Assembly (NCBI RefSeq): GCF_003344625.1
Contig: NZ_QPKJ02000001.1
Location: 1-64,000, forward strand
DNA from: Solirubrobacter deserti
GTDB lineage: Bacteria; Actinomycetota; Thermoleophilia; Solirubrobacterales; Solirubrobacteraceae
Direction: 5' to 3'
Length of the DNA stretch: 64,000 nt
The translations under genes and the position numbers were made by a program. How positions within the stretch are numbered: position 1 is the stretch's first letter; each line of letters opens with the position of its first letter. Of this stretch, positions 10,975-44,674 are shown in pieces. The notes beneath the pieces were generated by a model. That model was not told where the DNA came from and searched no databases. It was given only the letters and a program-made list of their open reading frames with translations.

Positions 10975-13818
10975 ATGACCCTGAGATTGCTGTTGACCAC
11001 GGCGGCGTTGAGCCTCGCAGCGGCGGCGCCCGCGTTCGCGCAGGTGCCGCTGAAGGCCTCCTTCACGGCCACTCCGGAGCAGCCCGAGCGCGGGCAGCTC
11101 GTGACCTTCGTGGCCACGAGCGACGGCTCGAGCCTGAAGCCGATCGTCCATACGTGGGACCTGGACGGCGACGGCGAGTTCGACGACGCCCAGGGTCGCA
11201 CCGCCGAGCGGGCGTTCGCCGCCGACGGGACGCACGTCGTGCGGTTGAAGGCCGTCCAGGGCGACGCAGCGAGCATCGCGGAGAAGACGTTCGTGATCGG
11301 CGGCCCGACGCCCACGCCGACGCCCACGCCGACGCCGACGCCGACGCCTACACCCGAGGCCACGCCGGACGCGACGCCGACTCCCGCCACACCGCCCGCG
11401 CCGGCGCCCACGGCGCCCGAGGCGAAGTTCGATCGCCAGTGCACGCGCCACGGCCAGTACACGTTCTGCGCGCTGGGCATCGCCTACCAGGGCGAGAAGA
11501 AGCGCATCAGCGCGGCGCCCTCCACCGGCCAGATCGTCGCCTACGAGTGGGACCTCGACGGCAACGGCACGTTTGAGCAGAGCACGGGCGCGACGCCGTT
11601 CGTCGAGCAGGTCTTCGAGCCGCGCAGCGCGGGCGTACAGGCCGTGCGCGAGTGGACGGTGTCCGTGCGCGTGACCGACGCGAGCGGTGCGACGTCCACG
11701 GCTGGCTTCCAGATCAACGTCAAGCCGCCCAAGTGCGAGCGCGAGGCCGAGTTCGGCGCCTTCACTGCAACCGGCGCGTGCCTGCGCGACTGGGGCGACC
11801 ACTACCGCTCGACGGAGCCGATCACGCTCAACGGCATCGCGATCGAGCCGCGTGACGGGCACTTCGTCCGCCTGTCGGCGTCGGAGATCAGCTCGCGCCG
11901 CGCGACGGTGTCCATGAACGCGGGCGGCACCTTCGCTGTCCTCTCCTCCGGCAAGTTCGAGTGGCGGCCGTCCGGGGACGAGCTGCGCGGCTTCGCCGTC
12001 GACGCCGGCGCCAGGATCAACGGACTGAAGGTGACCGGGCTGCAGGGGCGCCCGGTGCTGGCCGGCGGCGCGCTGCGCGCCAAGGTCTTCCTCGCGCTGC
12101 CGGAGCAGTTCGGCGGCGCGACGTCCGGCACGCCGGTCACGGTCGGCGGCGGCGCGCAGGCCGCCGACGGCGCGTTCTCGTTCAGCGTGCCGAGCGCGGC
12201 GCTGGGCCCGATCGGGCTCGACAAGCTCAACGTCCGTTACGACGGTGTGGACCTGTGGGAGATCGAGGCCGGCGTCGTGCTCCCGCCGCCCGCCTTCGTG
12301 AACGTCAACGGCAAAGCCGGCATCCGCAACGACGGCCGCTTCGCCTACGCGCAGGGCGAGACGCAGTTCCCCGGCGGCATCGCGCTCGGCTCCACCGGCG
12401 TGTTCCTGGAGCGCATCAAGTTCCGCATCGAGGTCGACCCGCCCGAGAGCGAGTGCGTCCCGCAGGTGGGCGTCAAGCCGCTGTACTGGCCCGAGCACAT
12501 CCTCGGCCCGCGGCCGTCCAACGTGCCCGCGACCGCCGACTTCGGCGTCCCGACCTTCGCCATGTGCGGCGAGGTGTCGCTCACGGCCGGCCCGTCGATC
12601 GGGGACGTCGCCGCCGCCCGCCTCACGGCCGGGCTCGGCTGGGCGACCTACGCCGACCGCCCGTGGGTGCTGCGCGCGTTCGGCGACCTGTACCTGATGA
12701 ACAACAAGATGGCCGAGGCCAGGCTGGCCGTGCACGGCGACGGCTACATCAGCGCGCTCGGCCGCTTCTACGTCGGCTGGTCGGGCGTCGCGTCGCTCAG
12801 CGGCGGCATCCGGCTCGAGATGCTCGGCTCCAAGTTCAATGCCAGCGGGCGCGTCGACGCGTGCCTGGAGTTCGTCGACTGGTGCGCCGGCGCCCGCGCG
12901 ATCGTCTCCACCAAGGGCATCGCCGCGTGCCTGAAGATCGACGTGCTGATCGGCGACTGGACGCCCGGCATCGGCTACGAGTGGGGCGACGCGCTGCCGA
13001 CGCCGTACCTGCAGGGCTGCGACATCGGCGACTACAAGGTCCGAATCACGCGCCCGCAGGCGGCGGCCGCGCAGTTCACGGGCGCGGCGCGCACGGTCGA
13101 CGTGAAGGGCGGGCTGCCCGGCGCGTCGTTCGTCATCCAGGGAGCGGGCGGGGCGCCCAAGGTCACCGTCACGGGGCCGGGAGGGCAGGCGCCGGCGCTC
13201 ACGCTCGAGAACGCGGGCGCGAACCTCACCCAGGTGCTGATCTCCAAGCCGGCCGCCGGGCGCTGGACGATCACGCCGCAGCCCGGGTCCGTGGCGATCA
13301 CCGAGGTGCTCGCGGCGGACGGCCTCGCTGAGCCGAAGGTGTCGGCCCGCGTGCTGCGGCCGGGCGTGCTGCGCTACGCGGTGGAGCCGGTCGCCGGTCA
13401 GACGGTGCGCCTCGTCGAGCGCGGCGGGAGCGCGGGCGGCGACATCGGCGTCGCTCGAGGTGAGGGAACGTTGCGCTGGACGCCCGCCGAGGGCGCGGCC
13501 GAGCAGCGCCAGATCGTCGCGCTCGTCGAGCAGGACGGGATGCCGCGCGACGAGCTCGTCGTCGCCACCTACCGCGCGCCGAAGGCCGCGCGGCCGTCGA
13601 AGGTGCGGGGCGTGAAGGTCACGCGTGGCGGCGTGAAGTGGACCCGTGTGCGCGGCGCCGGCAGCTACGTGGTCGAGGCGCGGCTGCCCGGCGGGCGCAC
13701 CGTGGTGCGCAGCGTAAGGGCGCCGCGGCTCGCGGTGCGCGGCGCCGTGCGCGTCAATGTGCGGGCCGTCAGCCCGAGCGGCATCACGGGGCCCCGAACA
13801 GCGGCGCGACGTCCATGA
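10975..13818 (+). CDS. Large secreted PKD-domain protein; member of the window's paralogous family
   Basis: A 947-residue protein with a Sec signal peptide (cleavage after AFA, about residue 22). A PKD domain (residues about 28-106, VHTWDLDGDGEFDD) is followed by a Thr-Pro repeat linker (about 111-130) and a second PKD-like domain (about 150-245, YEWDLDGNGTFEQ). Next comes a Cys-containing core starting FGAFTATGACLRDWG and including ITLNGIAIEPRDG and VSTKGIAACLKI. The C-terminal module contains SKPAAGRWTITPQPGS and a final FN3-like domain. Core and C-terminal module recur in the proteins at 35093-38365, 38362-41637 and 41642-44674. The protein should be exported or cell-wall associated, and its function is unknown. 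The 3' end overlaps the convergent SnoaL-like gene by 35 bases. Confidence 0.85.
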   Translation: MTLRLLLTTAALSLAAAAPAFAQVPLKASFTATPEQPERGQLVTFVATSDGSSLKPIVHTWDLDGDGEFDDAQGRTAERAFAADGTHVVRLKAVQGDAASIAEKTFVIGGPTPTPTPTPTPTPTPTPEATPDATPTPATPPAPAPTAPEAKFDRQCTRHGQYTFCALGIAYQGEKKRISAAPSTGQIVAYEWDLDGNGTFEQSTGATPFVEQVFEPRSAGVQAVREWTVSVRVTDASGATSTAGFQINVKPPKCEREAEFGAFTATGACLRDWGDHYRSTEPITLNGIAIEPRDGHFVRLSASEISSRRATVSMNAGGTFAVLSSGKFEWRPSGDELRGFAVDAGARINGLKVTGLQGRPVLAGGALRAKVFLALPEQFGGATSGTPVTVGGGAQAADGAFSFSVPSAALGPIGLDKLNVRYDGVDLWEIEAGVVLPPPAFVNVNGKAGIRNDGRFAYAQGETQFPGGIALGSTGVFLERIKFRIEVDPPESECVPQVGVKPLYWPEHILGPRPSNVPATADFGVPTFAMCGEVSLTAGPSIGDVAAARLTAGLGWATYADRPWVLRAFGDLYLMNNKMAEARLAVHGDGYISALGRFYVGWSGVASLSGGIRLEMLGSKFNASGRVDACLEFVDWCAGARAIVSTKGIAACLKIDVLIGDWTPGIGYEWGDALPTPYLQGCDIGDYKVRITRPQAAAAQFTGAARTVDVKGGLPGASFVIQGAGGAPKVTVTGPGGQAPALTLENAGANLTQVLISKPAAGRWTITPQPGSVAITEVLAADGLAEPKVSARVLRPGVLRYAVEPVAGQTVRLVERGGSAGGDIGVARGEGTLRWTPAEGAAEQRQIVALVEQDGMPRDELVVATYRAPKAARPSKVRGVKVTRGGVKWTRVRGAGSYVVEARLPGGRTVVRSVRAPRLAVRGAVRVNVRAVSPSGITGPRTAARRP
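11305..11355 (+). repeat. Hexameric repeat encoding a Thr-Pro linker
   Basis: About eight tandem copies of a six-base unit (CCGACG/CCCACG variants) encode consecutive Thr-Pro pairs between the two PKD domains. Such linkers are extended and often O-glycosylated in exported actinobacterial proteins. The DNA repeat could vary in copy number between strains by slippage in steps of two residues. Confidence 0.8.
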
Positions 13819-14140: not shown

Positions 14141-14169
14141 TGGCGAAGACTACGGAGGAGAACGCGGCC

Positions 14170-15656: not shown

Positions 15657-15736
15657 AGGCGAGGGACCGGTCGGAGGGACGGGACGGCGGCGTCCAGTTT
15701 GCTGCGGAAAGCTCGTCCTTCTAGACCCGCTCCCCG

Positions 15737-15791
15737 GTGCGGGGGAGACGCTCCCACGTGCGGGGGAGGGACGCGTTGCCCCACAACGCGT
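15737..15791. promoter_or_regulatory. Tandem direct repeats plus inverted repeat upstream of the glutamine synthetase-like gene
   Basis: GTGCGGGGGAG occurs at 15737-15747 and again at 15758-15768, exactly 21 bases apart (two helical turns). A perfect 8-base inverted repeat follows, ACGCGTTG (15771-15778) and CAACGCGT (15784-15791), with a 5-base loop. All lie 55-110 bases before the GTG at 15847. Same-face tandem sites suit a dimeric regulator such as a NarL-type protein, two of whose relatives are encoded next door. GGGGGAG by itself is common in this GC-rich DNA, so only the spacing and the inverted repeat are notable. Confidence 0.4.
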
Positions 15792-15846
15792 AGGTCACGT
15801 ATACCGGTCAAGTTCCCCCCTTCCGCCCGCCCTCCGGAGCCGCCCC

Positions 15847-17484
15847 GTGAACCGTCCGTTCGACCTTGACGCCGCCCGCCGGCGATCCCGCTGTGTGATC
15901 GCCGAACCGGCGTCGTACGCCTTCACGACCGCCGCGCAGCGCGAATGGCTGACTCCTCGCGGGTTCTCGCTGCTGCAGTCGGCGATCGTGGACGGCCACG
16001 GGCTCGGCGAGGACCTGGCGCACGAGGTGGCCCGCGCGCTGCGCGGCTGGGCGGCGAGCCGCGGCGCGACCCAGGTCGCGTTCCGGGTCCACGCGCTCGC
16101 CGGTGAGCCGGCCGAGTACCGGCTCGAGCTCCCCCGCCTGACCGGTCAGGACCTGGTGGGCGGCGCCCACGCCACGCCCGCCCGCGGCCGGCTCACCTGG
16201 GACCCGGCCAGCGCGGCGTTCATCCGCGTCGACGGGCGCGGCGCGACGCTGTGCCTGCCGTCCGTGCTGGCTTCGGCCGACGGGGAGGCGCTCGATCACC
16301 GGCTGCCGCTGATGCGCTCCGAGGACGCGCTGGCCGCGGTCGCCGCCCGGGCGCTGCGCCTGCTCGGCGGCGGCGCGCGTGAACGCGTGCTGCCGACCGT
16401 GGCGCTCTCGCGCGCGTTCGAGCTCGTCGACGCGCAGCCCGGGGAGCCGCGCGGCGTCGCCGAGCGCGTATCGGGGTGCATGATCGAGGCCGAACGCGCG
16501 CTCGACCGCGTCGCCGCGGGCGTGCGGATCGGCGGCCAGGTGCTCACGGTGCTGCCGGCCGCGACCGGGCTCGCCGCCGACCGGCTGACGCTCGCGCTCG
16601 AGGTGCTGGCCGACGTCGCGCCGCGGTACGGGCTCACGCTGCGCGCCGGCGCCGCCGGGCCCGACGCGTGGTCGCTGATGGCGGGCGCGCACGGCAACCT
16701 GCTCGCGCCCGGCTCGACACCGCGCGCGCACCTGCGCTTCGCGTTCTTCGCCGCCGCCGTGGTCCGCGCATTCGCCGCGCACCCGGGCCTCGTCGGCCGG
16801 CTCGACCTCGGCCCGGACCTCGACGCCGTCCTGGCCGCCCTCGCGCGCGGCGAGCTGTTCGCCGGCAGCGACGAGGAGCGCGGCTGCGGCGCGCCGCCGC
16901 TCCCGCGCGTCGCCGGCCGCGCGACCGCCTACGGCTTCAGCGGCGCCGGTTTCGCGCTCGGCGCCCTGGACCCGTTCACCAGCACCGTCGTGAACACCAT
17001 CGTCGCCGACGCGATCATCGAGCAGGTCCGCTCGGTGCAGGCCTGGCTGACCGCGGGCGAGGACTTCGAGCCGGCCGTCCGCGAGGTCATCGCGGACGCC
17101 TACCGCCGCCATCGCCACGCCGGCCGCACGCTCGTTCCCGACACGGCGACGCGCGTGTTCGCCGAGCACTCCGTGATGTCCGCGCGTGAGCTGGAGGCCC
17201 GCCGCGCCGCGCGCCTGCGCGACGAGGCGCGCGAGGCGGTCGAGCGCGCCCGTGCCTACGTGGCGCCCGCCGCGATCCTGCGCCGCGCGCGGCTGTCCCC
17301 GCCCCGCACCCGCGAGGCGTCCCGCCAGGCGGCCGAGATCGACGAGGCGCTGCGCACCGTCCAGGCCGCGTCACGGGCGCTGGACGCGATCGTCGCCGCC
17401 GGCGACACGAGCGCCGTGCCGCCGCTGCTGGCGGACCTGCGCGCCGCCGCGCAGCGCCTCACGCCGGCTCGAACAGAGAGTTGA
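15847..17484 (+). CDS. Degenerate type III glutamine synthetase-like protein (predicted pseudoenzyme)
   Basis: A 545-residue protein from the GTG at 15847; a longer open frame begins at 15616 but lacks family similarity. It follows GlnN/GSIII in order: LRGWAASRGAT (GSIII: MKDWAIEKGAT), WDPASAAFI, TLCLPS, GEALDHRLPLMRS, GNLLAPGSTPRAHLRFAFF, then SGAGFALGALDPFTST and NTIVADAI. The catalytic blocks of GSIII are lost or changed. GPEQEYF is ALSRAFEL, the RHNEVAPAQ and NDHRLGANEAPPA segments are missing, HNNWS is PDAWS, and KFEFR is GFALG. Length is about 545 against about 700-730 for GSIII. I infer a non-catalytic sensor or scaffold. Its 3' end overlaps the convergent NarL-type regulator gene by 26 bases. 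Confidence 0.8.
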   Translation: MNRPFDLDAARRRSRCVIAEPASYAFTTAAQREWLTPRGFSLLQSAIVDGHGLGEDLAHEVARALRGWAASRGATQVAFRVHALAGEPAEYRLELPRLTGQDLVGGAHATPARGRLTWDPASAAFIRVDGRGATLCLPSVLASADGEALDHRLPLMRSEDALAAVAARALRLLGGGARERVLPTVALSRAFELVDAQPGEPRGVAERVSGCMIEAERALDRVAAGVRIGGQVLTVLPAATGLAADRLTLALEVLADVAPRYGLTLRAGAAGPDAWSLMAGAHGNLLAPGSTPRAHLRFAFFAAAVVRAFAAHPGLVGRLDLGPDLDAVLAALARGELFAGSDEERGCGAPPLPRVAGRATAYGFSGAGFALGALDPFTSTVVNTIVADAIIEQVRSVQAWLTAGEDFEPAVREVIADAYRRHRHAGRTLVPDTATRVFAEHSVMSARELEARRAARLRDEAREAVERARAYVAPAAILRRARLSPPRTREASRQAAEIDEALRTVQAASRALDAIVAAGDTSAVPPLLADLRAAAQRLTPARTES

Positions 17485-18094
17485 TCAGGCCGATCGCGAC
17501 GGCCTGGGCGGACGTGCGCGCGCCGAGCTTGCGGCGTACCTCGGTGGTGTGCGACTTCACGGTCTCCTCGCCGATCCCCATCTGCTCGGCGATCTCCTTG
17601 CGCTCCAGGCCTTGAGCGAGCAGCCGTAGCACGGTCAGCTGCTTGGGGGAGAGCTCCTGGAAGTCCCGGCCGTCCGCGCTGGCCGCGAACGCCGGTGATG
17701 TGAATGAGCGCCCGCGCGACGCGAGCAGCACCGCCTTGAGGAGGTCCCCGGGGGAGTCGCCCTTGGAGACGACACCCTGCGCGCCGGCCGCGAACGCCCG
17801 CTCGGCCACGCCGAGCTCGTCCAGGCCGGTGTAGAAGACGACGTCGACCGCCGGCAGGTCGGCCCGGATGCGCCGGCACAGCTCGAAGCCGTCGATCGCC
17901 GAGCCCTCTAGCGCCACGTCGAGCACCGCGACCCGCGGCGAGTGCTCGCGGCAGGCGGCGATCGCCTCCTCCGCGTCGTGGGCGTACGCCACCACGTCCA
18001 CCTCGGGACGATTGTGGAAGAGCGTGCGCAACCCGAGGACGACCATCCTGTGGTCGTCCACCAGGACAACGGGTACGGCAAGGGCGGAGGACAC
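17459..18094 (-). CDS. NarL/FixJ-family response regulator
   Basis: A 211-residue two-domain regulator. The receiver occupies residues about 7-125, with acidic pocket D13/D14, phospho-acceptor D59 (VAVLDVALEG) and conserved Lys in VVSKGDSP. A LuxR-type helix-turn-helix follows at about 145-205 (LSPKQLTVLRLLAQGLERKEIAEQMGIGEETVKSHTTEV, split here by eye into two helices). It is divergent from the stand-alone receiver at 18255 and close to the hybrid PAS kinase at 18610, so it is a candidate output partner of that kinase. It is also a candidate to bind the upstream region of the neighbouring 15847 gene. Confidence 0.92.
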   Translation of the reverse strand: MSSALAVPVVLVDDHRMVVLGLRTLFHNRPEVDVVAYAHDAEEAIAACREHSPRVAVLDVALEGSAIDGFELCRRIRADLPAVDVVFYTGLDELGVAERAFAAGAQGVVSKGDSPGDLLKAVLLASRGRSFTSPAFAASADGRDFQELSPKQLTVLRLLAQGLERKEIAEQMGIGEETVKSHTTEVRRKLGARTSAQAVAIGLINSLFEPA

Positions 18095-18254
18095 AGCGAC
18101 CTATCCGATGGTAAACCGGCGGCATCGAGCGCTGCTGGACGCTCGGTCCGCGTGCGGACATCCTGTCCAGTCGCCGAACGCCGTGGAAAGGCTCACCCGC
18201 ACGGGGGAGGCGCGTGATCCGGCCCGCGCAGCAGGGCGATACTCCGGATCGACG

Positions 18255-18638
18255 ATGACTGCGCCGACACGAGTGCTGGTGGCCGACGATGAGCCGCTGA
18301 TCCGATTGCTGCTACGGCACACGCTCGAGCGCCGGCCCGGCCTGGAAATCGTGGGCGAAGCGGCAGATGGCGCCGAAGCGCTCAGCCTGATCGAAGCCCT
18401 GCAGCCGGACATCGTGGTCCTGGACCTGTCGATGCCCGAGCCGGACGGGCTCGAGGTGACACGGCGGTTGCGCGCCGCCCGCAACGCCTGCGGGATCGTC
18501 GTGTTCTCGAGCACGACCGGCGCCGAGCCGGCCGTGCTGGCCTGCGGCGCGGACCGGTTCGTGGACAAGGCGGCGGGCGTCGAAGACGCGGTCGACGCGG
18601 TCGTCGCCCTCAGCGCGCTGCGGGGACCCGGAGGCTGA
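18255..18638 (+). CDS. Single-domain response regulator (receiver only)
   Basis: A 127-residue CheY-like protein, MTAPTRVLVADDEPLIRLLL, with acidic pair D11/D12, phospho-acceptor D57 (IVVLDLSMPEPDG), a conserved Ser/Thr region (VVFSSTTG) and Lys in RFVDKAAG. There is no output domain, since the stop comes right after the last helix. The last 29 bases overlap the end of the convergent histidine kinase gene. It may act as a phosphate sink, as a phosphorelay intermediate or by protein contact. Confidence 0.9.
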   Translation: MTAPTRVLVADDEPLIRLLLRHTLERRPGLEIVGEAADGAEALSLIEALQPDIVVLDLSMPEPDGLEVTRRLRAARNACGIVVFSSTTGAEPAVLACGADRFVDKAAGVEDAVDAVVALSALRGPGG

Positions 18639-33748: not shown

Positions 33749-35047
33749 ATGAGAGCCCTGATGGTGTCCGCGCTCGTCCTCCTCGTCTGTGCGGCTCCGG
33801 CCGCGGCGGACATCACGCGTCTGGCCACGGTCCCCGGCACGATTGTGGACGCCGCGCCGGATCGGGTGCTCTATCTCGAACGCCCGACGCAGCGGCTGAT
33901 GGTGCAGGAGGTCGCGGGCGGCGCGCCCACGGCGGTCCCACTGCGCCCCGGAGGGTTCGCGACCGCCAACGCGAAGCTGATCGACGGCGGCGTCGTCTAC
34001 GTCGCGCGGGATGGCGAGGCGCGCCTGTGGCTGGACTGGTGGCGCGGCGACGTGCTGCGGACAGCGGGCGCGTTCGGGCACACCCCGTTCTCGGTCGCGG
34101 GCGACTTCCTGCTGTGGAGCTCGGGCTCAGGGCTCGCCCGCACCCGCCTGTCCAGCGGACGCACCGACTACCTCACCCACAACTACCGCGCGAGCGGCGG
34201 CAACGCCGTCGCCGCGAACGGCGACGCCGTGTTCGCGACGCTGGACGGCGCACTGCACTGGCTGCGGGACGGCCGCATCTCGCGGATCGGGCGCGTCGGT
34301 TGGACATGGGCGTCGCAGCCCGTCTTCGACGGTACGGCCGTCGCCTTCCGCCGCACTGCGCCGTGCTGTGAATCCCCGAGCTTCATCGCCTACGGGGACG
34401 GCCCGGGCGAGATCATCCAGGACACGTTCCGGGAGGGCCCGGCGCCGCAGCCCGGCGTCGACTACATGGTCAACAACGGTTGGATCGCCTTCACGCGCCC
34501 GGCCGACCGGACGCGGCCGACGAGCCCGCTGCGCGTGTGGACGCGCGATCCGCAGGGGCGGCTCGACCTCGTGCACCCGGAGGCCGCGCGCCTGCAGGGC
34601 ATCAGCCGCACCGGGCAGGTGCTCTACCGGGTCGGCAGCGAGTCCCAGCTGGTGGCGCGCGGCGAGCGGCCGTTTCGGCTGCCGCATGCGGTGGACCGCG
34701 CGTTCTGGGCGGATGGTCGTTGGCATCTGATCACGGGCGCGACGGTCTCGCGGCTCGACGTCTCGACCGAGCTTGTCCGCGGCCCCGACCGCGTGACGCC
34801 CAACGCGATAGCGCTGTTCGAGCTCGCATCCTCGGTGCAGGGCGCACGGTACGAGTGCCGGCTCGACGACCGGCCCGCCGCGCCGTGCTCCGCCGATCCG
34901 CGCTTCGACGATCTCGCCTTCGGCACCCACACCGTCACGGTCACGGCGATCGATCCGGAGACGGGGGAGCGTGACGCCACCCCGGCGACCTACACCTGGG
35001 TCGTCACGCCGCCGTCCGTCGGGCCGGAAGAGCCGTGCTGCACGTGA
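33749..35047 (+). CDS. Secreted propeller-like protein with a C-terminal Cys-containing Ig-like module
   Basis: A 432-residue exported protein with a signal peptide cleaved after AAA at about residue 20. The central part has repeated short strands with alternating display phrases (VVYVARDGEARLWLDWW, FLLWSSGSGLARTRL, LHWLRDGRISRIG), consistent with a beta-propeller. The C-terminus (residues about 355-425) carries one module of the form YECRLDDRPAAPCSAD, GTHTVTVTAID, TYTWVV. The same module is repeated in the proteins of the convergent 35093-50820 operon. Function is unknown, and extracellular display or binding is inferred. Confidence 0.8.
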   Translation: MRALMVSALVLLVCAAPAAADITRLATVPGTIVDAAPDRVLYLERPTQRLMVQEVAGGAPTAVPLRPGGFATANAKLIDGGVVYVARDGEARLWLDWWRGDVLRTAGAFGHTPFSVAGDFLLWSSGSGLARTRLSSGRTDYLTHNYRASGGNAVAANGDAVFATLDGALHWLRDGRISRIGRVGWTWASQPVFDGTAVAFRRTAPCCESPSFIAYGDGPGEIIQDTFREGPAPQPGVDYMVNNGWIAFTRPADRTRPTSPLRVWTRDPQGRLDLVHPEAARLQGISRTGQVLYRVGSESQLVARGERPFRLPHAVDRAFWADGRWHLITGATVSRLDVSTELVRGPDRVTPNAIALFELASSVQGARYECRLDDRPAAPCSADPRFDDLAFGTHTVTVTAIDPETGERDATPATYTWVVTPPSVGPEEPCCT

Positions 35048-35051
35048 CGGG

Positions 35052-35092: not shown

Positions 35093-38000
35093 TCACGGCT
35101 TGAGCGTCTTGGCCCGGCCCGGCGCGCCGTCGGCGCGCACGGCGCGGACCACGACGCGCTCGAGCGTGTGGCCCGCAAGGCGCTTGACGGTGACACGCCG
35201 GGCCTTGCCGGGATCGACGTCGTACGTCAGCTCGCGACCGTCGCCGGTCCAGACGCCGACGGTGTAGCCGACAGCGCCGGGCACCGCGCTCCACTTGACC
35301 GTGCCGCCGCGGGTCGCGGTGACCCGCTTGGGCGCGGCGAGCGTGCGCAGCTTCGGCGCCGTGTAGCGCGCGACGGTCAGCGACGTCCGCGGCGCGCCGT
35401 TCTGCAGCACGTCCGCCACGATGCGGCGCGTGCCGCCGCGCCCGAACGCCGGCTTGAAGCGCAGCGTGCCCTTCCGGCCCCGCGCGGTGCCGATCGTGAA
35501 CGCCCCGCCGTCCGCGCGCAGCTCACGCAGCCGGACGGTCTGCCCCTTCAGCGGCGCGACCTCGTAGTCGGCGACGTACTTCCCGCGCACCCGCCGCACC
35601 TTCACCGCCACCGACGGCTCGGGCAGCGCCGCTGCGCTCGCGAGCGAGCGGACCGGCGCCGAGCCCGGCTGCGGCTCGACCGTCCAGCGCCCGGCCGCGG
35701 GCTTGGCCAGCACGACGTAGGTCGTGTTGTCGCCGGGGGAGTGGATGAACATGTGCCGCTCGCCCTTGACGATGCCGGCGGCGGACGCCGGCGCCGCGGC
35801 GGCGGCCGCACCCGGGCCCGCGAGCGCCACGTGCGGCGGCGCGCCCTCACCGCGCACGGCGATCACGGTCGCATCCAGCCCGGAGCCGAGGGACACGCTG
35901 GGCGCCCCGGCCTGCGCCGCCGACGCCGGCGTGTGCCAGCTGTCGAAGTCGCAGGAGTCGGCGACCCGCTCGCTCTTGCTGCCGGGACGGCCGTTGATGA
36001 TGCCCATCTGCTTGACGTAGCCGATCGAGCCCGACCAGACCTTGAGGTCGATCTGGCCGCAGGCGCTGACCGTCAGCGCCTTGCTGTTGGAGGTCAGACG
36101 GGCCTCCGCGGCGGCCAGGCAGCTCGACTCGATCTCCGTGGAGATCACGCCGAACGAGAGCTTGCCCGCGAAGCACAGCCCGGCCTTGGCGCGGAAGTCC
36201 ACCGAGCCGCTCGCGAACGCGCCCGTGAACGTGCCCTTGAGCTCGGTCTTGAGCTCGTTCTCGCCGTCCTTGCTCTTGAGCTTCCAGTCCTTGCCGAGCT
36301 CGGCGACCGCGGTGACGCCGCCTTCCTTGTACTCGATCGAGCCCTTGCCCCACTGCTCGCCGACGAACGACAGCGACCCGGAGAGCTTGAAGCCCTTGGC
36401 GTTGAACGTCAGGTCGCCGTCCGCGTCGACGAGCGAGAGCGGACCCTCGGAGGTGTAGATGCGCGGGCCCCAGGACAGGCCCAGGCCGACGGTGGCCTCC
36501 CAGTTGGGCTGGAAGACGTAGCCGATCTTGATCCGCTGCCAGTAGAGGCCGCCGAGGAACGGGCCCAGCCCGATGTTCGACACCTCGCCGGAGAGGTGCT
36601 TGAGCGTGCCCTCCTTGACGCCCACGCCGACCTTCACGTCGGGCGCGCGCGGGATCGGGATGGCGGCCGACAGCGTCGCCTCCCACTCGTTCTCGGCCGC
36701 CGAGTACCAGAACGACGCGCCGCCGATCCGCAGCCGGCCGAGGCCGATGTTGCCCTCCACCGTGCCGCCGAGCTTGTCGACCTTGAGCCCGTCGCGGTTG
36801 TCCGTGCGCACGGAGCCGATGAAGCCCGGGCCGTCCGCGGCGCTCTCGTAGTTGTCGTTGGGCGTCTTGCACTCTTCGTCGGCGGAGTCGACGAGCCCGT
36901 CGCGGTCGTCGTCGGTGCCGTTGGAGCACTGCGAGCGCCCGCTGCTGCTGTAGGCCTCGCCGGTCGGCGCAGTCCCGCTGAAGATGCCCGGGATGCCGAT
37001 GTTGACCTCCAGGGACGTCGAGCCCTGCCCGAGCGAGAGCTTGTGCAGGCCCTTGAACGGCAGCCCGAAGAGCTTCACCGAGCCCGCGGCGCCGAACCCG
37101 TCGATGTCGGTCGGCCGCAGCGTGCCCGCCTCCTTGGGCAGGGTCCAGTTGAGCTCCTTGTGCTGCGCGAGCGGGATCGGGAGGCGGTCGAAGTACGTGG
37201 ACGGGATCGACATCGACATCGACTCGGACCGCACGGTGCGCGACTTGACGTCGATCCGCACCCACTTGCCGGCGCCGGGCGTGATGTCGAGGCCGTTGAG
37301 CCGCACGGTGCCGGTCGTCGCGTAGAGGTTGGCGTCGAGCTTGGCGAAGCACTCCGCGTAGGCCTCGAGGATGCCGGTGCGGATGAACGAGATCCGCCGC
37401 TTGGTGCCCTTCCACTGCGCCAGCCCCGGGTCCTCGACCATCACGGGCCCACCGGCGTCGTTGTAGCCGGTGCAGCGGCTGTCTTCGGCGTTGCCGGACT
37501 CGCTCGTGCTCTCAGCGGCGCCCAGGACGAGGTCATTGCCGATCCGCTCGGCCGGCCACGGAGCCTTGCGCCACTCGAAGACCTCGGTCCCCCGGTGCGA
37601 GTAGGTGATCTTGGCCGTGTGGCCCTCGGTCGTGTTGGTCAGCAGCGACGTGTGCGTGAGGAACTGCTTCGGATAGTCCTTGAGGTAGACCGTCTTGTGC
37701 TCGGCGTCCATCGCGGTCGCCGACTCGCCGCTGACGAGCGCGTCCGCCGCCGACCCGATGACGGTCCAGTCCGTGCCCTTCGCGCCCTGCGGGTTCATCC
37801 AGCGGTTCAGCCGGTGGGCGAGGAAGGCCTTGCCCATCTCGTGGTCGGCGTCGAGCTCGCCGCAGACCCGTCGCGCACAGTCCGACGAGAGCTCCTTCCC
37901 GCCCGCGTGCGGCGCGTTGAGCGTGATCGCGTCCTCGAGCGCCAGCGACGGCTCGAGCGCCAGCGCGGCCCGCAGGACCACGCCGCCCGTCCCGGCCGCG

Positions 38001-38365
38001 ACGGCGTCGAACGGCTGGGCGCCGTAGCGGTTCTTGAGGTAGTCCGCCAGCGCGCGGCCGTGTGCCTCCACGCCCGCGCTGTCGGCGACGCCCACGTTCC
38101 AGTCGCAGTTGGTGTCGCCCGCGTGCGTCGAGACGGTCACGAACGGCGTCGTCTTGAAGCGGTGGAAGCGCTCGTCGGCGAGGATCCGTTGCTGGCGCAG
38201 CTGCCCCTGCAGCGGCTTCCACGTCGCCTTGCAGTCCACGGCCGTGCCGGTCTCGCCACCCGAGACGAACACGACCGGCTTGACCGTGTCGTCCGAGCGC
38301 TCCGCGGCGCCCGCCGGGGCGGCCGCGCCGAGCGCGACCGCCAGGGCCAACACGAGCCGCCTCAT
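35093..38365 (-). CDS. Large secreted protein with an N-terminal lipase-like domain lacking the nucleophile
   Basis: A 1090-residue protein with a signal peptide (cleavage after AGA, about residue 20). Residues about 28-270 resemble an alpha/beta-hydrolase (KPVVFVSGGETG, TLNAPHAGGKEL, HTSLLTN). The elbow, usually GHSMGG, reads AAGTGG, so the catalytic Ser is missing. Next come the family core (ILEAYAECFAKLDANLYATTG, VRLNGLDI), a Ca-site-like CSNGTDDDRDGLVDSADEEC, long beta-rich repeats, and a C-terminal module (TTYVVLAKPAAGRWTVEPQP) with an FN3-like end. Core and C-terminus are shared with the two genes upstream and with 10975-13818. The start overlaps the upstream stop (ATGA). Binding or scaffolding seems likelier than catalysis. 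Confidence 0.82.
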   Translation of the reverse strand: MRRLVLALAVALGAAAPAGAAERSDDTVKPVVFVSGGETGTAVDCKATWKPLQGQLRQQRILADERFHRFKTTPFVTVSTHAGDTNCDWNVGVADSAGVEAHGRALADYLKNRYGAQPFDAVAAGTGGVVLRAALALEPSLALEDAITLNAPHAGGKELSSDCARRVCGELDADHEMGKAFLAHRLNRWMNPQGAKGTDWTVIGSAADALVSGESATAMDAEHKTVYLKDYPKQFLTHTSLLTNTTEGHTAKITYSHRGTEVFEWRKAPWPAERIGNDLVLGAAESTSESGNAEDSRCTGYNDAGGPVMVEDPGLAQWKGTKRRISFIRTGILEAYAECFAKLDANLYATTGTVRLNGLDITPGAGKWVRIDVKSRTVRSESMSMSIPSTYFDRLPIPLAQHKELNWTLPKEAGTLRPTDIDGFGAAGSVKLFGLPFKGLHKLSLGQGSTSLEVNIGIPGIFSGTAPTGEAYSSSGRSQCSNGTDDDRDGLVDSADEECKTPNDNYESAADGPGFIGSVRTDNRDGLKVDKLGGTVEGNIGLGRLRIGGASFWYSAAENEWEATLSAAIPIPRAPDVKVGVGVKEGTLKHLSGEVSNIGLGPFLGGLYWQRIKIGYVFQPNWEATVGLGLSWGPRIYTSEGPLSLVDADGDLTFNAKGFKLSGSLSFVGEQWGKGSIEYKEGGVTAVAELGKDWKLKSKDGENELKTELKGTFTGAFASGSVDFRAKAGLCFAGKLSFGVISTEIESSCLAAAEARLTSNSKALTVSACGQIDLKVWSGSIGYVKQMGIINGRPGSKSERVADSCDFDSWHTPASAAQAGAPSVSLGSGLDATVIAVRGEGAPPHVALAGPGAAAAAAPASAAGIVKGERHMFIHSPGDNTTYVVLAKPAAGRWTVEPQPGSAPVRSLASAAALPEPSVAVKVRRVRGKYVADYEVAPLKGQTVRLRELRADGGAFTIGTARGRKGTLRFKPAFGRGGTRRIVADVLQNGAPRTSLTVARYTAPKLRTLAAPKRVTATRGGTVKWSAVPGAVGYTVGVWTGDGRELTYDVDPGKARRVTVKRLAGHTLERVVVRAVRADGAPGRAKTLKP

Positions 38366-41300
38366 CGCCGGCCACCCTTCTTCTTCGTGGAGACGCGCTT
38401 GAGCGGCTTGCTCTTGTGCGGGGCGACGTTCGCCTTGCGCGTCGCCTTGATGCGCACGCGCGCGGCCTTGCTGACCTTGCCGTCCAGGCGCACCGTGCGC
38501 AGCGCCACGCGCACGGTCACGTCACGGCCCACACCCGCCACGCGGATCGGCCGCTTGGCGTCGTCCGGCGCGAACGAGAGCTTGCGCCCGTCCGAGGTCG
38601 TGACGACGGCGTTGTAGCTCACGGCGTTCGGCACCGCCGCCCAGCGCACGAGCACGGCCGAACCCGTGCGGCGCGCGCGCAGCAAGCCCGGCTTGGCCGG
38701 CGTGCGCTCCTTCGGCGCCTTGTAGGAGGCGACCTTGATCTCCTCGCCCGGACGGCCGTCCTGCTCGATCTGGGCGACGATGTCACGCTTGCCCGCGGGA
38801 CCGGCGCCCGGGGCGAAGCGCAGCTGGCCGCAGGCCGTCTTGCGCTCGGTGTCGACGCCGCCTGCCGCCTCGCGGCAGCGGCCGGGCTTGGCCACGCCGA
38901 TGACGCGCTTGGTCCGCGGGCCCTTCTCGACGAACGTGATCTTCTGGCCGGGGGTGGGGGAGTAGCTGTAGGCCAGCGTGCGCTTGTGGCCCTTGCCGCC
39001 CACGCCGCCGACCAGCGTCGGCTGCGGGGTCGCGAACGCCTTGTCGACGGACGTCACCTCGACGCCCGCGTGCGGCTCGATCCGCCACTCACCGGCCGCC
39101 GGCCCGGTGACGAGGATCGACGTCGCCTTCTTGTGCGGGTCCGAGGCGATCATGTGCGAGCCCTCGACGAGCTCGCCGCCGTCCTCGGGCACCGTGATCC
39201 GGCGCCCGTCGGGGCCGACGAGGTCCACGCGCGGCGCCGCGTCCTTGCCGTGCACGCGCGCCGTGAAGGCCGGCATGTCGGCCGGGACGTCGATCGTCGG
39301 GATCGCGCCGACCTGCGACGGCCGCGCGAGGATCCACTTGCCGATCGAGCACGACGAGAGCATCAGGTCGAGGTCGTGGTTCTTCCACGTGTAGCCCGCG
39401 CCGCCCTTGACGGTGATCGGCTGCATCTCCCAGTGCACGCGCCAGGGCGCCCAGATCTTCCAGTTCTTGTTCTTGACCAGCACGGGGACCTCGAGCAGCG
39501 TCACCTTGATGCAGCCCGCGGCGCCGACCGAGGAGGCGACCGCGCGCCCGTCCAGGCAGCCGACCTTGTAGACGCACACGCTGACCCAGCCCTCGACGTT
39601 GAAGCGCGAGGGCGAGCGCGTCTCGATCCAGCCGGTGACGCCGCCGTTGATCTGCGCGAGGCCGAAGTCGAGCTCGCCGCGGAAGTTGAAGTCGATCATC
39701 CCGGAGCCCCAGTAGGTGAAGTCCGAGGTCGCGACCTGCTTGCCGAACAGCGACAGCGAGCCGTTGGCCTTGATGAACCACGGCGTGCCGTTCCAGGCGT
39801 CGGAGTAGTGCAGGTCACCGTCGATGCGCACCGCGGACTTGCCGTCCACGGACGGGCCGAACGACACGGCCGCGCCGCCCTTGACCTGGAAGGGCGGCGG
39901 CTCCAGGCACACGCCCAGCCGCACGCTCTCCAGGAACACGCCCGGCGCCAGCGGCACCATCGTGCCGAGGCCGTCGACGTACGCGCCCGCATGGCTGAGC
40001 TTGCCGTTGCGCAGGCCGCCCCACATGCCGAGCTGGGTCTTGGAGGCGGTGGGCAGGACGATCGCCAGCGCGCCGTCCCAGCGGTCGGCGTTGTTGTCGG
40101 AGCGGCACTCCATGTACGGCTTCGGCTTGCCCGGGCCGATCGCCGGCGCCTGGCACGGCTCGACCGCGCTCGACCCGGCGCTCGCGAAGCTCAGGCACAC
40201 GAGCTTGACGCCGAGCTTGCCGATGTAGGCGTTCTCGACCTTGATCTTGAGCCCGTCGAGGTGGACGCCGTCGTTGTCGATGTTGATCGCGACGTCGCCC
40301 GTGACCGAGCCCGAGCCGCTGTCCGGGCCGGACTTGAACGCCTCGGGCAGCGCGATGTGCAGCGCCAGGACCGACTTGTACTTGCCGCCCGGCTGGGCCG
40401 GGGCGCGCAGACGCAGCGCGACGTGGCCCTCGACCTTCATGCCGAACAGCTTCTGGCCGGCCTTGGAGAGGTCGATCTTCTTGAACTCCTTCTCCTCGCC
40501 GAGCTTGCCCTCGGGGAGATCCCAGGACATGCCGCCCTCGTAGAGCTTGATGCCGGCCAGCTCGATCTTCACGTTCTGGATCGCGATCGAGCCGCCCTTC
40601 TTGTCGGGTGTCGGCGCGGTCAGGACGGTCTTGCTGCCGCCGATCGACGGCAGCGGGATGCCGTTGACCTTGACCGTGTCCTTGGACTCGTAGACGGGCT
40701 GGGCCTCGGTGCCGACGTTCTGCAGGCAGGGCGCGGTCGCCTCGATCACGCCGAAGCGCACGACGGGCTGGCAGTCGTCGACCGTGAACGAGCGCTTGGC
40801 GGGTGTCTCGTCCGTGTTGCCGGCGCGGTCGGTCGCGCGCACCTCGACGGTGTGCTGGCCGCCCGCGAGCCGCGGCGTCGTGAACTGGCCGTGCGGCGCG
40901 CACGGCTCCCACGTCTTGGTGTCGACGCCCTCCTGGCTGACGTTGTCGATCCGGCACTCGTACGTGGAGCCCGACTCGGAGGAGCCGAACTCGAACGTCT
41001 GCACCGTGCCGGTCCGTGCGCCCTCGGCCGGGCCGCTGACGATCGTCGTGTCCGGCGCGTCGGCGTCGATCGTGAACGCGCGCTGCGCCGGGGTCGTGTC
41101 GAGCTTGCCCTGCGGCGACTTCGCGCGTACGTTGAGCGTGTAGGCCCCGGAGCGCAGCTTCGGCGCCTCGAACGGCGACGAGCAGGCCGCCCACGCCGGC
41201 ACCGAGGAGTTCGCGCCGTCGATCTTGCACTCGAACGTCGCGCCCGTGGTCTCGGTGGCGAACGTGAACGACGGCGTCGGGTCGTTGGTGACGTCGCCCG

Positions 41301-41637
41301 GGCCGCCCTCGATCGTGGTGTCCACGGTGGAGGTGTCGACCGTGAACGCCCAGCGCGGCGGGTTCGGCTCGACGTTGCCGGCGCCGTCGGTGGCGCGCAC
41401 GGAGAACACGTACTCGCCGTCGGGCAGCTGCACGCTGTAGGGCGAGGCGCACGACTTCCACGTGCCGGTCGGCTCGATCAGGCACTCGAACGTCGAGCCC
41501 GGTTCACCGCTGAAGGTGAACGTGGGCGTCGCGTCGGTGGTGATCTTCGCCGGACCCTCGTTGATCGTCTGGGCGGAGGCCGGGCCGGCGAGCGCCAGCA
41601 TGGCGGTCACCGCCGCCGAGATGATGCGTCCGTGCAT
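38362..41637 (-). CDS. Large secreted paralogue with three Cys-containing Ig-like repeats
   Basis: A 1091-residue protein starting MHGRIISAAVTAML, with a signal peptide cleaved after ASA. Three N-terminal repeats of about 90-100 residues each carry the pattern FECxID..W..C.SPF...L..G.yT..VRA.D..GN.D.TPA...FTVD. The family core follows (VRFGVIEATAPCLQNVG, YESKDTVKVNGI), then a long beta-rich part with paired Cys and GAGYTWKNHDLDL. The C-terminal module contains TGPAAGEWRIEPHAG and an FN3-like domain with a Lys/Arg-rich tail. AAGGA precedes the ATG. It is third in the four-gene operon and has no catalytic motif that I can see. Confidence 0.82.
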   Translation of the reverse strand: MHGRIISAAVTAMLALAGPASAQTINEGPAKITTDATPTFTFSGEPGSTFECLIEPTGTWKSCASPYSVQLPDGEYVFSVRATDGAGNVEPNPPRWAFTVDTSTVDTTIEGGPGDVTNDPTPSFTFATETTGATFECKIDGANSSVPAWAACSSPFEAPKLRSGAYTLNVRAKSPQGKLDTTPAQRAFTIDADAPDTTIVSGPAEGARTGTVQTFEFGSSESGSTYECRIDNVSQEGVDTKTWEPCAPHGQFTTPRLAGGQHTVEVRATDRAGNTDETPAKRSFTVDDCQPVVRFGVIEATAPCLQNVGTEAQPVYESKDTVKVNGIPLPSIGGSKTVLTAPTPDKKGGSIAIQNVKIELAGIKLYEGGMSWDLPEGKLGEEKEFKKIDLSKAGQKLFGMKVEGHVALRLRAPAQPGGKYKSVLALHIALPEAFKSGPDSGSGSVTGDVAINIDNDGVHLDGLKIKVENAYIGKLGVKLVCLSFASAGSSAVEPCQAPAIGPGKPKPYMECRSDNNADRWDGALAIVLPTASKTQLGMWGGLRNGKLSHAGAYVDGLGTMVPLAPGVFLESVRLGVCLEPPPFQVKGGAAVSFGPSVDGKSAVRIDGDLHYSDAWNGTPWFIKANGSLSLFGKQVATSDFTYWGSGMIDFNFRGELDFGLAQINGGVTGWIETRSPSRFNVEGWVSVCVYKVGCLDGRAVASSVGAAGCIKVTLLEVPVLVKNKNWKIWAPWRVHWEMQPITVKGGAGYTWKNHDLDLMLSSCSIGKWILARPSQVGAIPTIDVPADMPAFTARVHGKDAAPRVDLVGPDGRRITVPEDGGELVEGSHMIASDPHKKATSILVTGPAAGEWRIEPHAGVEVTSVDKAFATPQPTLVGGVGGKGHKRTLAYSYSPTPGQKITFVEKGPRTKRVIGVAKPGRCREAAGGVDTERKTACGQLRFAPGAGPAGKRDIVAQIEQDGRPGEEIKVASYKAPKERTPAKPGLLRARRTGSAVLVRWAAVPNAVSYNAVVTTSDGRKLSFAPDDAKRPIRVAGVGRDVTVRVALRTVRLDGKVSKAARVRIKATRKANVAPHKSKPLKRVSTKKKGGRR

Positions 41638-41641
41638 CGGG

Positions 41642-44600
41642 TCAGTCCTTTCGGGTCCAGGTGGCGGCGCGACCCGTGCCGTTGTCGGCACGCATCGCCA
41701 CGACACGGACGCTGACGGCGTCCGCGATCTTCACGACGCGCGTGTCCGCGTCGACCAGCTTGAGCACGACGCGGCCGTCCGGCAGCGTGACGCGCACGGA
41801 GTAGCGATCCGCGTTCGCGGCCGGACGCCACGCGATCGTCGTCGGCGCGGTGCCGGACGCCGCGGACGCGCGGCGCGTGACCTTCAGCGCCCTCGGGATG
41901 CCCGGCTTCACGCGCGCCGGCGCGATGTAGGACGCGACGGTCAGGCGCTTGCGCGGGAGCCCGTCCTGCTCGACGACGGCGACGATCGTGCGCTTGCCGC
42001 CGCGGCCGTCGGCCGGGCGGAAGCGCAGAGTGCCCTTGCCGCCGCCGCGGACCGTGCCGAGCACGTGGTCGGCGGCCGTGCCCCGTTCCTCGAAGCGCAC
42101 GGTCTGGCCCGCCTGGCGCGCGACGCTGTACTTCAGCGTCCGCGTGCGGCCGGAGCCGCCGACCCGCGCGCGCACCTTCACGGCGGGACGCAGCTCGGCG
42201 CTGCTGACGGCGGCGATCGTCGCGCCGCCGGCCGGCGTGATCGTCCAGCGGCCGCCGCGCGGACGCGACAGCACGACGTAGGTGGTCTGGGTGCCGCTGT
42301 TGGTGAACGCGAGCGAGCGCTCGGTCTTGCCCGGCGCCGCGATCTTCGTGCCGCCCGGACCGCGCAGCTGCACCTGCGGCGCAGCGCCGGCGCCGCGCAC
42401 GGCGACCATGATCGCGCGCTTGCCCTTCGGCAGCACGATCGTCTTCTCACCGGGCGAGGCCGCGCTGGCCTTGGCCTTCTCCACGCGCCAGTCCTTGAGA
42501 TCGCACGTGCCGGCCATGAACTTCAGCGAGCCGCCCCACGTGTAGCCGGCGCCGACCCCGCCGATGTTGTCGTTGCCGACCTTCAGCTGGCCGCAGAGCG
42601 CGATGCCCTTGCTGGAGACCAGGCCCTCGACGCGTGGGCACAGGTTCGGGATCGGCACCGGGACGGTGTCGGCGACCTTGTAGGTGCCGGAGAAGCAGCC
42701 CTGGGCCGAGATCTCCGCGTTGAACTTGGAGTCCTCGATGAAGCCGTCGACGGACGCGTCGATGGTCACGGCGGCGTCGATCGAACCGAGCGGCACCGGG
42801 CCCTTGAGCCCGAGCGAGAAGTTCAGCTTGCCGCCGAAGTCGACCGCGCCGTTGGAGGCGTAGCCGAGGTGCAGGTCCTTGAACGTGTAGTCGCGGTCAC
42901 GGGTGAGCGTGGCCAGCGGCGCCTCGGCGCGCAGCGACCATGGGTCGCCGGCCTTGAAGATCAGCCCGGCGTCCGGGATCTTGAGGTTCGCCTCGCCCTT
43001 GTCGATGCCGAGCGCCGTCAGGCCGATGCGGCCCTCGACGGTCACCGGCGAGCCGGCGCAGACCTTGATCGCGATCTTCTGCACGCGGATGCCGGCGCCG
43101 ATGTTCAGGCCCGGCTCGTGGTTGAGCGTCCCGACCGCGTGGTTGAAGCCGCCGTCGGCGAAGCCCATGCCGACGTTGTCGATGCGGAGCTTGTTGGGCG
43201 TGGGGAGGACGATCGCCTCGGCGCCGCCCTCCCACTTCAGGCCCGGGGAGTCGTGGTTGCAGGTCGGCTTGGCGTCGCCGTTGTGCTCACCCGAGAACGT
43301 GAGGTGCAGGTTGTGGATCTCGACCTTGCCGACGAACACGAGCGGCGCGTTGATCTTCAGGCCGGAGAGGTGGATGCCGCGGACGTTGTCGGACTTGACC
43401 TCGACGGCGCCGGTGAGCCCGTTGCCCTCGGCGTCCTGGAAGACCTTCGGCAGCTCGACGTTGCCGCTGAGCACCGCGATCCCGCCCTTGAGCAGCTCGA
43501 GCTTGGCCTCGCCCACGAGCTCGAAGCCCTGGACGTTGGCGCCGTCGTCGCCCTTGAGGTCGAGCGCCTTCTCGGAGTCCTTGGGCTTGGAGCCGAGCTT
43601 GGTCTTCGAGCCCACGTTGAACTTCGCCAGGGTGACCTTGTCGCCCTCGGGCACGGTCCACTCGAGGTCGCCCTCGTAGAGCACGATGCCCTTGATGCGC
43701 AGCTGGATCTGGCCGAGCGAGAGCTTGCGCTTGTCGGTGTCGAAGCGCAGCTTGCGGCCGTCGATCTTGTTGAACGTGATGCCGTTGACCTTCACCGAGT
43801 CCTCGGCCACCCACAGGCCGTCCTCGCGGTAGAAGCAGTCCGCGACGGCCTCGACGACGCCGATCGTCAGCTTCTCCGTGCAGTCGCGGACCTGCAGCAC
43901 GCGGGCGGCGGGCGTCGGGTCGACGTTGCCGGCCGCGTCGGTGGCGCGCGCGTACACGGTGTGCTCGCCCGGCGTCAGCTCGGCCGTCGTGTACGACGCG
44001 TCGCACTTGGCCCACGCGGCGTCGTCGACCTTGCACTGGAACGTCGAGCTCGGGCGCGTGGACGCGAGCGCGAACGTCGGCGTGCGCTCCTTCGTGGAGC
44101 CCTCGACGCCGTCGATCGTCGTGTCCGGCCCGGTCGCGGCGAACGTGAGCACACGCGAGGCCACGGTCTGGTTGTTCGCCGCGTCGGCCGCGATCACGTT
44201 CACGGAGTGCGTGCCGTTGGCCAGCACCGGGGTCGTGAACGGCGACGTGCACGGCGCCGCTTCGCCCGAGTCGATCGCGCACCGGAACTCCACGCCCTCC
44301 TCCGGGGAGGAGAAGGTGAGCGTCGCGGTGACGTCGTTGATCGTGTCAGGGCCGGGATCGAGCGTGAGCGCGGGCGCGACCGAGTCGACGGTGAACGAGT
44401 GGAAGGCGCTCGTGCCGTCGGCCGTGCTGCGCACGCGGAACACGTGGCTGCCGTCGGTCAGCCTGGGCGCCTTGTAGACGCCGTCCGCGCACGGCTGCCA
44501 GGCCAGCTGGTCCATCCGGCACTCGGCCGGCGCCGCGGCCGTGAACGAGAACACGGGCTCGGGGTCGTTGGTCAGACGGACGGGCCCGTCGTCGATCCGG

Positions 44601-44674
44601 GTCTGCGCGTGCGCGGTCCCGGCGAGGACGCCGGCGAACGCCAGCGTCACCACCATCAGGCGGAACAGGTTCAT
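41642..44674 (-). CDS. Large secreted paralogue, 1010 aa
   Basis: The signal peptide MNLFRLMVVTLAFAGVLAG is cleaved after AHA. Three Ig-like repeats with one Cys pair each follow (ECRMDQLAWQPCADGVY; FRCAIDSGEAAPCTSPF; FQCKVDDAAWAKCDASY). Then come the core (LTIGVVEAVADCFYREDG, EDSVKVNGITF), a beta-rich body with LVSSKGIALCGQL and GVGAGYTWGGSL, and the C-terminal module (TTYVVLSRPRGGRWTITPAGG) with an FN3-like end. AAAGGAGG lies seven bases before the ATG at 44674, which overlaps the upstream stop. It aligns along its whole length with the proteins at 38362 and 10975. Confidence 0.83.
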   Translation of the reverse strand: MNLFRLMVVTLAFAGVLAGTAHAQTRIDDGPVRLTNDPEPVFSFTAAAPAECRMDQLAWQPCADGVYKAPRLTDGSHVFRVRSTADGTSAFHSFTVDSVAPALTLDPGPDTINDVTATLTFSSPEEGVEFRCAIDSGEAAPCTSPFTTPVLANGTHSVNVIAADAANNQTVASRVLTFAATGPDTTIDGVEGSTKERTPTFALASTRPSSTFQCKVDDAAWAKCDASYTTAELTPGEHTVYARATDAAGNVDPTPAARVLQVRDCTEKLTIGVVEAVADCFYREDGLWVAEDSVKVNGITFNKIDGRKLRFDTDKRKLSLGQIQLRIKGIVLYEGDLEWTVPEGDKVTLAKFNVGSKTKLGSKPKDSEKALDLKGDDGANVQGFELVGEAKLELLKGGIAVLSGNVELPKVFQDAEGNGLTGAVEVKSDNVRGIHLSGLKINAPLVFVGKVEIHNLHLTFSGEHNGDAKPTCNHDSPGLKWEGGAEAIVLPTPNKLRIDNVGMGFADGGFNHAVGTLNHEPGLNIGAGIRVQKIAIKVCAGSPVTVEGRIGLTALGIDKGEANLKIPDAGLIFKAGDPWSLRAEAPLATLTRDRDYTFKDLHLGYASNGAVDFGGKLNFSLGLKGPVPLGSIDAAVTIDASVDGFIEDSKFNAEISAQGCFSGTYKVADTVPVPIPNLCPRVEGLVSSKGIALCGQLKVGNDNIGGVGAGYTWGGSLKFMAGTCDLKDWRVEKAKASAASPGEKTIVLPKGKRAIMVAVRGAGAAPQVQLRGPGGTKIAAPGKTERSLAFTNSGTQTTYVVLSRPRGGRWTITPAGGATIAAVSSAELRPAVKVRARVGGSGRTRTLKYSVARQAGQTVRFEERGTAADHVLGTVRGGGKGTLRFRPADGRGGKRTIVAVVEQDGLPRKRLTVASYIAPARVKPGIPRALKVTRRASAASGTAPTTIAWRPAANADRYSVRVTLPDGRVVLKLVDADTRVVKIADAVSVRVVAMRADNGTGRAATWTRKD

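Follow-up and report, generated by a model that had tools for sequence, protein, structure and literature searches.

The window analysed here is a stretch of 64,000 nucleotides (positions 1 to 64,000 of contig NZ_QPKJ02000001.1) from Solirubrobacter deserti, whose genome is referred to below as the own genome; it matches S. deserti CPCC 204708, the P0004 body being 100% identical to NZ_JAPCID010000057.1. It encodes four proteins, named P0001 to P0004, in which different N-terminal heads precede one beta-rich body. P0001 (10975..13818, + strand, 947 amino acids (aa)) consists of a signal peptide, a PKD head and the body. The other three lie on the - strand: P0002 (35093..38365, 1090 aa) starts with a hydrolase-like head that has Gly at the expected nucleophile position, P0003 (38362..41637, 1091 aa) with three Big_13 repeats and P0004 (41642..44674, 1010 aa) with Ig-like repeats. 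A fifth protein, P0005 (44671..50820, - strand, 2049 aa, its start taken as the GTG at 50820), combines a PD40/TolB-like propeller with PKD and Big_13 domains and is the first gene of a cassette described below. An earlier note on this DNA, made from the sequence alone, had placed the four open reading frames (ORFs) at just these positions; it called their products giant, and at 947-1091 residues large is the apter word. The operon that it proposed with the 2049-residue propeller protein holds by position, as P0005, P0004, P0003 and P0002 follow each other on the same strand, overlapping by 4 bases at the first and last junctions and separated by 4 bases at the middle one, and P0001 stands apart on the opposite strand. 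Long + strand ORFs across the operon (e.g. 41462-45760 and 45505-50886) were rejected: GC content at third codon positions (GC3) is 0.95-0.97 in the minus-strand frames, and the + strand ORFs were taken for shadows of this GC-rich coding sequence. Signal peptides were recognized at the start of P0001 to P0004 by reading, not by a predictor.

The body is homologous in all four proteins. Pairwise BLASTP gave E values of 4e-112 for P0003 and P0004, 4e-53 for P0001 and P0004, and 7e-37 for P0001 and P0002. Profiles were built separately for each body type and compared with each other, and their matches run from end to end over about 670-700 columns: the P0001 type matches the P0004 type at E 2.9e-78 (698 columns), the P0002 type at 1.8e-49 (667 columns) and the P0003 type at 1.5e-82 (679 columns). 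The homology thus extends over the whole body, and the family of four large secreted proteins with a common beta-rich body is confirmed. Of the short motifs by which the earlier note had recognized it, the Cys motifs GACLRDWG, ECFAKLDA, APCLQNVG and ADCFYRED were all found. The others need amending: P0002 reads LNGL where a VNGI or LNGI strand was claimed and is without the GAGYTW-like turn, and the sequence KPAAGRWTIxPxPGS is exact in P0001 only, the other three proteins having KPAAGRWTVEPQPGS, GPAAGEWRIEPHAGV and RPRGGRWTITPAGGA. Secondary structure was compared between the two modelled bodies out of the four, and it agrees at 87% of 377 aligned residues, where shifted alignments reach 58 +/- 4%; the comparison is not fully independent as the input alignments have sequences in common.

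The body divides into a core domain of about 450-480 residues and a C-terminal module. In P0001 the core occupies 11731..13086 (+, 452 aa), and the module, composed of the KPAAGRWTI domain and an FN3-like end, 13087..13818 (+), its fold being assigned by analogy with the P0004 model. In P0004 the core occupies 42449..43885 (-, 479 aa) and the module 41642..42448 (-). The P0003 body lies at 38362..40776 (-) and the P0002 body at 35093..37420 (-). The module in the P0004 model is made of three beta-sandwiches, of which the first weakly resembles GBD_Hemicentin and the other two are FN3-like. GBD_Hemicentin (PF23560) differs from the module in that just 2/50 bodies match it at E <= 0.01 and the matches in L117 and P0004 stay below the Pfam cut-off: in the locus L117 the match falls on the module region of the body (residues 774-857) with 23.6 bits for the full protein, and neither this protein nor P0004 (11.7-11.9 bits) reaches the cut-off of 27 bits. 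The last FN3 domain is missing from one own-genome body, L024.

The earlier note had found no named domain for either the core or the module, and scans of 50 head-free bodies against Pfam and NCBIfam bear this out. At E <= 0.01 the sole Pfam family was GBD_Hemicentin (2/50, best E 2.7e-5), the sole NCBIfam match was acid_disulf_rpt, an acidic disulfide insert, in 1/50, and none of these covers the core. When 11 bodies were scanned at E <= 5, Pfam returned five families, each in one or two members and with a best E of 0.032. In P0001 to P0004, Pfam matches above cut-off are confined to the heads. The body family thus has no Pfam or NCBIfam name. A sequence search of the PDB with the whole alignment, heads included, gave 21 rows at E <= 1; most of them are chains of the collagenase-PKD and FN3 types, and SraP (0.015) and VgrG (0.24) are also present. 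No description of the family was found in the literature searched, which covers few subscription journals, and the main text of the paper describing S. deserti (PMC10722151) does not contain the terms adhesi, Ig-like and secret.

The own genome holds ten bodies rather than four, and an eleventh match covers the FN3 end only. The six bodies beyond the window comprise two that adjoin a second propeller (locus L021), L022 and L024 with PKD-like heads, L023 with an unnamed head, and L025 with a delta-60 propeller and Ig-like head. In a sample of the order, the body profile matched 30/101 genomes, 29 of them beyond the FN3 end. In a sample of the phylum it matched 18/396 genomes, of which 11 have a body (the own genome, five of the same family, one of the same order, two of the same class and two of other classes), and the remaining seven matches lie in the module or the FN3 end and span no more than 90 profile positions; this search scored two candidates per genome, so that copy numbers are lower bounds. 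Nocardioides sp. T2.26MG-1 is a named match outside the class. Protein searches, each scoring about 7990 candidates so that the counts are again minima, returned at least 34, at least 48 and at least 63 matches, the named organisms being Solirubrobacter, Conexibacter and Solirubrobacteraceae. Those homologues that carry a name are annotated as hypothetical protein, as plastocyanin, as PKD repeat protein, or as Ig-like, PKD or VWA domain-containing protein. Two proteins of about 3460 aa (L118:2069-12448 and L119:2556-12932), both from a genome (G337) that belongs to another class, carry the body near the C-terminus at residues 2700-3290, and one of them has a collagen repeat.

Many kinds of heads stand N-terminal to the one type of body, and those that can be named by profile are mostly binding-type domains. 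Above cut-off these are Big_13, PKD, VWA, Laminin_G_3 (LamG_3), PhoD_N and the delta-60/DUF5122 propeller; BNR in L120 scored below cut-off, as did the P0002 and S. phytolaccae heads of hydrolase type, and there are unnamed types besides. Within the window, the differing heads described in the earlier note stand for PKD in P0001 and the Ig-like Big_13 in P0003 and P0004, where Big_13 on its own exceeds the cut-off in three stretches and one stretch respectively, the further repeats of P0004 being assigned by reading. The lipase-like head of P0002 (37421..38365, -), which reads VAAGTGG at the expected elbow, is alpha/beta hydrolase-like at sub-threshold level only: alone it matches Palm_thioest at E 0.0058, below cut-off, and its S. 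phytolaccae counterpart (E 2.4e-4) is below cut-off too. In the PDB the P0002 head gave one row by sequence, at E 0.96. Side by side with these heads we noticed a 432-aa ORF (33749-35047, +) that converges on the operon and has a signal-peptide-like start and no Pfam match, its C-terminus being weakly similar to the Ig-like repeats. Elsewhere in the own genome, a protein of 1899 aa (L026:4499-10198, +) has 14 Big_13 stretches behind copper-binding domains of the plastocyanin type.

To see how heads are distributed over bodies, labels were placed on a maximum-likelihood tree of 50 of the 51 listed body stretches (L059, a copy of L130, was left out, and the list had earlier dropped L058, L060, L062 and bodies with truncated ends). 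The 11 head labels need 12 changes, against a minimum of 10 and a shuffled mean of 32.6, on a quick tree in which 31/47 inner branches are well supported, 12 are open and four rows have long branches. PKD and delta-60 change three times each, Big_13 twice and every other multi-row label once; the delta-60 label is not clearly clustered, 40/500 shuffles being as low. Profile tests cover 17/50 labels, the rest coming from BLAST grouping, earlier BLASTP or reading, and among the tested heads those of P0002, L130, L120, L023, L097, L099 and L117 have no match or one below cut-off. The heads labelled propA and propB had no Pfam match in the members tested (L023, L099), and to call them propellers is a guess. 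Freely swapped heads were rejected on these counts, and the frequent swapping that the earlier note had proposed is not borne out, as the labels follow the body tree. On this tree, heads mostly stay with their bodies; the boundary between the two is crossed seldom but not just once, and some heads (PKD, Big_13) were gained more than once.

We then considered what kind of domain the core is. AlphaFold2 predicts the P0001 core as one long antiparallel beta meander with a predicted local distance difference test score (pLDDT) of 92.6 and a predicted template modelling score (pTM) of 0.81. Six cysteines are widely conserved: Cys 2 and Cys 17 in 99% of 70 and 94 ungapped rows, Cys 378 and Cys 385 in 88% and 94%, and Cys 400 and Cys 430 in 100% of 106; Cys 242 (100% of 56) and Cys 279 (52%) belong to part of the family only. 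In the first two pairs (2/17 and 378/385) the cysteines would face each other, provided that the hairpins of the model are tight. The P0002 core additionally contains an acidic double-disulfide insert (P0002 residues 478-501), which matches NCBIfam NF033662 below cut-off and has a counterpart in S. phytolaccae. When the model was compared with solved structures by Foldseek, the best-listed ones were membrane barrels, matched only locally: the template modelling (TM) score does not exceed 0.25 by query length or 0.29 by target length, the best E is 1.2e-3, and the root-mean-square deviation (rmsd) is 7.5-12.4 Å in all rows listed except one, an LptD at 5.8 Å. In a viral structure library, tail and fibronectin-type proteins top the list, with TM scores of at most 0.18 by query length among the best 50. 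No beta-groove lipid-transfer protein of the AsmA/TamB/VPS13 kind was among the VIA and Foldseek matches listed, an absence that excludes nothing.

The membrane barrels raise the question of whether the core itself is a membrane-embedded beta-barrel, such as a pore, porin or export channel. The chaperone-usher pore proteins FimD and PapC, LptD and the porins do share the long antiparallel meander, but the scores above show no global superposition on the core, and the sandwich domains that follow the core set the family further apart from them. The hydrophobic face of the sheet is also conserved in the manner of a buried one. Hydrophobicity alternates strongly along the 18 long strands of the P0001 core (2.67 against 1.14 +/- 0.19 shuffled, 0/2000), and charged residues make up 4% of the hydrophobic face and 28% of the polar face. 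The hydrophobic face is the more conserved one, with an entropy of 2.07 against 2.49 (1/5000 permutations as large) and of 1.28 against 1.56 within a clade of 20 sequences (131/5000 permutations), in a test that is biased by the choice of faces by hydrophobicity and was run with no control barrel family. The lipid-facing residues of membrane barrels are usually less conserved. The greater conservation of the hydrophobic face thus favours its burial within a soluble, inward-packed roll, and such a roll is how we would read the core. In addition, S. deserti is Gram-stain positive according to its description (PMC10722151), and a membrane-embedded barrel is in our view very improbable.

P0005, P0004, P0003 and P0002 form a cassette that recurs within the genus. 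The order propeller, P0004-type gene, P0003-type gene and gene with the P0002 head was found by tblastn at six Solirubrobacter loci, namely the window, L021 in the same genome, L059 of S. phytolaccae, L060/L131 of S. soli, and L095 and L132 of the same genus; the S. phytolaccae (L059/L130) and S. soli loci had been entered twice and were counted once each. The propeller genes at L021 and L095 were called at 1166 and 1168 aa, shorter than P0005, and their propeller part resembles that of P0005 only weakly. In the window and in S. phytolaccae, the hydrolase-like head of the fourth gene continues into the body. In the other 4/6 cassettes it is followed by a second hydrolase domain that matches Pfam LCAT above cut-off (E 1.7e-9 to 8.7e-8) and has an SHSYGG motif. 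In 6/6 genes, a Gly stands in the first domain where the nucleophile is expected (VAAGTGG, VAYGGGG, VAFGRGG, VAHGTGG, VGYGQGG and VAEGGGG), the site being set by head alignment in four genes and by reading in two. Alignment of the first with the second domain pairs this Gly with the Ser in 2/4 genes (L021, L132), that of L131 does not reach the site, and the weak alignment of L095 pairs another residue. The first domain exceeds cut-offs of the Palm_thioest/LCAT type in L131, L095 and L021, by whole-protein scores, and falls below them in P0002, S. phytolaccae and L132. It may be related to the LCAT and palmitoyl-protein thioesterase hydrolases, and it differs from them in the Gly and in being joined, in four genes, to the second domain with SHSYGG. 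The Gly in the sole hydrolase-like domain of P0002 speaks against P0002 as an active lipase, and the catalytic partner may have been lost or replaced in the window's cassette copy. Strong tandem-hydrolase matches outside the genus were absent among 41 genomes, with a weaker head match in G007 (E 2.4e-18).

Around the bodies more generally, simple gene calls at 45 body loci gave no gene family at more than four of them beyond a LuxR-type AAA/TPR regulator. This regulator is present at 8/45 loci (L022, L098, L101, L110, L112, L114, L120 and L134, its profile being seen for L022) and is divergent from the body at several.

The LCAT-like domain in the fourth gene of 4/6 cassettes brings up the strongest rival explanation, which is that the core roll holds a hydrophobic ligand such as a lipid, a wax or a polyester chain, and that the proteins serve extracellular lipid binding or processing together with this hydrolase. 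A single hydrophobic face running along long strands and more conserved than the polar one would suit such a ligand, and LptD and apolipoprotein B are among the Foldseek matches listed. But these fold matches, few of them lipid carriers, do not go beyond local similarity (TM at most 0.25 by query length), and bodies range well beyond the genus to which the strong tandem-hydrolase matches are confined among the 41 genomes. We consider lipid binding by the core unlikely, the leading rival though it is.

The same hydrolase-like gene could suggest that the core is a new kind of enzyme and the heads its substrate-binding modules. Secreted hydrolases, too, can carry LamG, PKD or Ig-like domains, and the near-invariant core residues, which are Gly, Cys, Pro, Asn, Trp and Phe, include one Ser. 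However, no conserved acid or base set accompanies that Ser among the invariant and near-invariant columns in alignments of 42, 106 and 50 sequences, and catalysis by the core seems improbable to us.

The reading that we favour, by a modest margin over its being wrong, is that P0001 to P0004 belong to a family, as yet without a name, whose members are secreted and bind outside the cell without being catalysts, a new scaffold domain in the body presenting the N-terminal head. The core would be a long antiparallel beta meander rolled up with its conserved hydrophobic face inward and pinned by the conserved Cys pairs, and the three C-terminal beta-sandwich domains would complete the shared body. 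Such a body may act as a rigid, disulfide-stabilised scaffold that displays a binding head outside the cell, different heads giving different paralogues different targets for binding or adhesion. The four-gene cassette may then be a genus-level set of co-secreted proteins, possibly assembled into a single complex in the matrix or on the envelope. Modular adhesins and the secreted bacterial proteins with Big_13 or PKD domains are similar in having a signal peptide, Ig-like/PKD arrays and binding-type heads, and the present family differs from them in its unnamed core and in having no visible LPXTG signal or membrane anchor.

Several observations count against this scaffold reading. No LPXTG signal or membrane anchor was seen by eye in the last 45 residues of any of the ten own-genome body proteins (0/10), which leaves surface display unproven. 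The commonest label on the tree (14/50) is an unnamed head type, of which one member was tested and had no Pfam match, so that binding is unsupported for that type. The adherence of head labels to body clades argues against a rapid diversification of recognition, and the bias of the face-conservation test noted above bears on the inward-packed roll. Lastly, the LCAT-like SHSYGG hydrolase in 4/6 cassettes means that the ancestral cassette may have been enzymatic. The interpretation in the earlier note is accordingly supported in part: an unnamed core and module with many heads stands, frequent swapping is not supported, and a display system is unproven.

Two further genes of the window are recorded here for their own sake. 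One is a 745-aa ORF (55634-57871, +) in which a Bac_luciferase monooxygenase is fused to a berberine-bridge-type oxidase (FAD_binding_4, BBE), and the other is a multi-PAS histidine kinase (17459-20781, -) adjoining a gene that, by reading, is a probable response regulator.

The analysis provides a domain definition for ten proteins of one genome and for bodies in 29/101 sampled genomes of the order. The names that homologues carry at present describe the head or nothing. The own genome also offers a natural comparison for the putative scaffold role, as the LCAT-like domain is retained in one cassette copy and the scaffold occupies its position in the other. A bolder and rather doubtful idea is that a Gram-positive lineage has turned a very large barrel-like meander, a shape otherwise of outer membranes, into a secreted block that is soluble and hydrophobic on the inside. 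Across Solirubrobacterales this block could be the C-terminal carrier that binding heads have in common, and in Solirubrobacter a co-secreted complex of propeller, two bodies and pseudohydrolase could be founded on it. The core is small enough to express and has a confident model, to which none of the solved structures among the matches listed is a good counterpart; a single structure would therefore reveal whether soluble barrel-like rolls are in extracellular use in monoderm bacteria.

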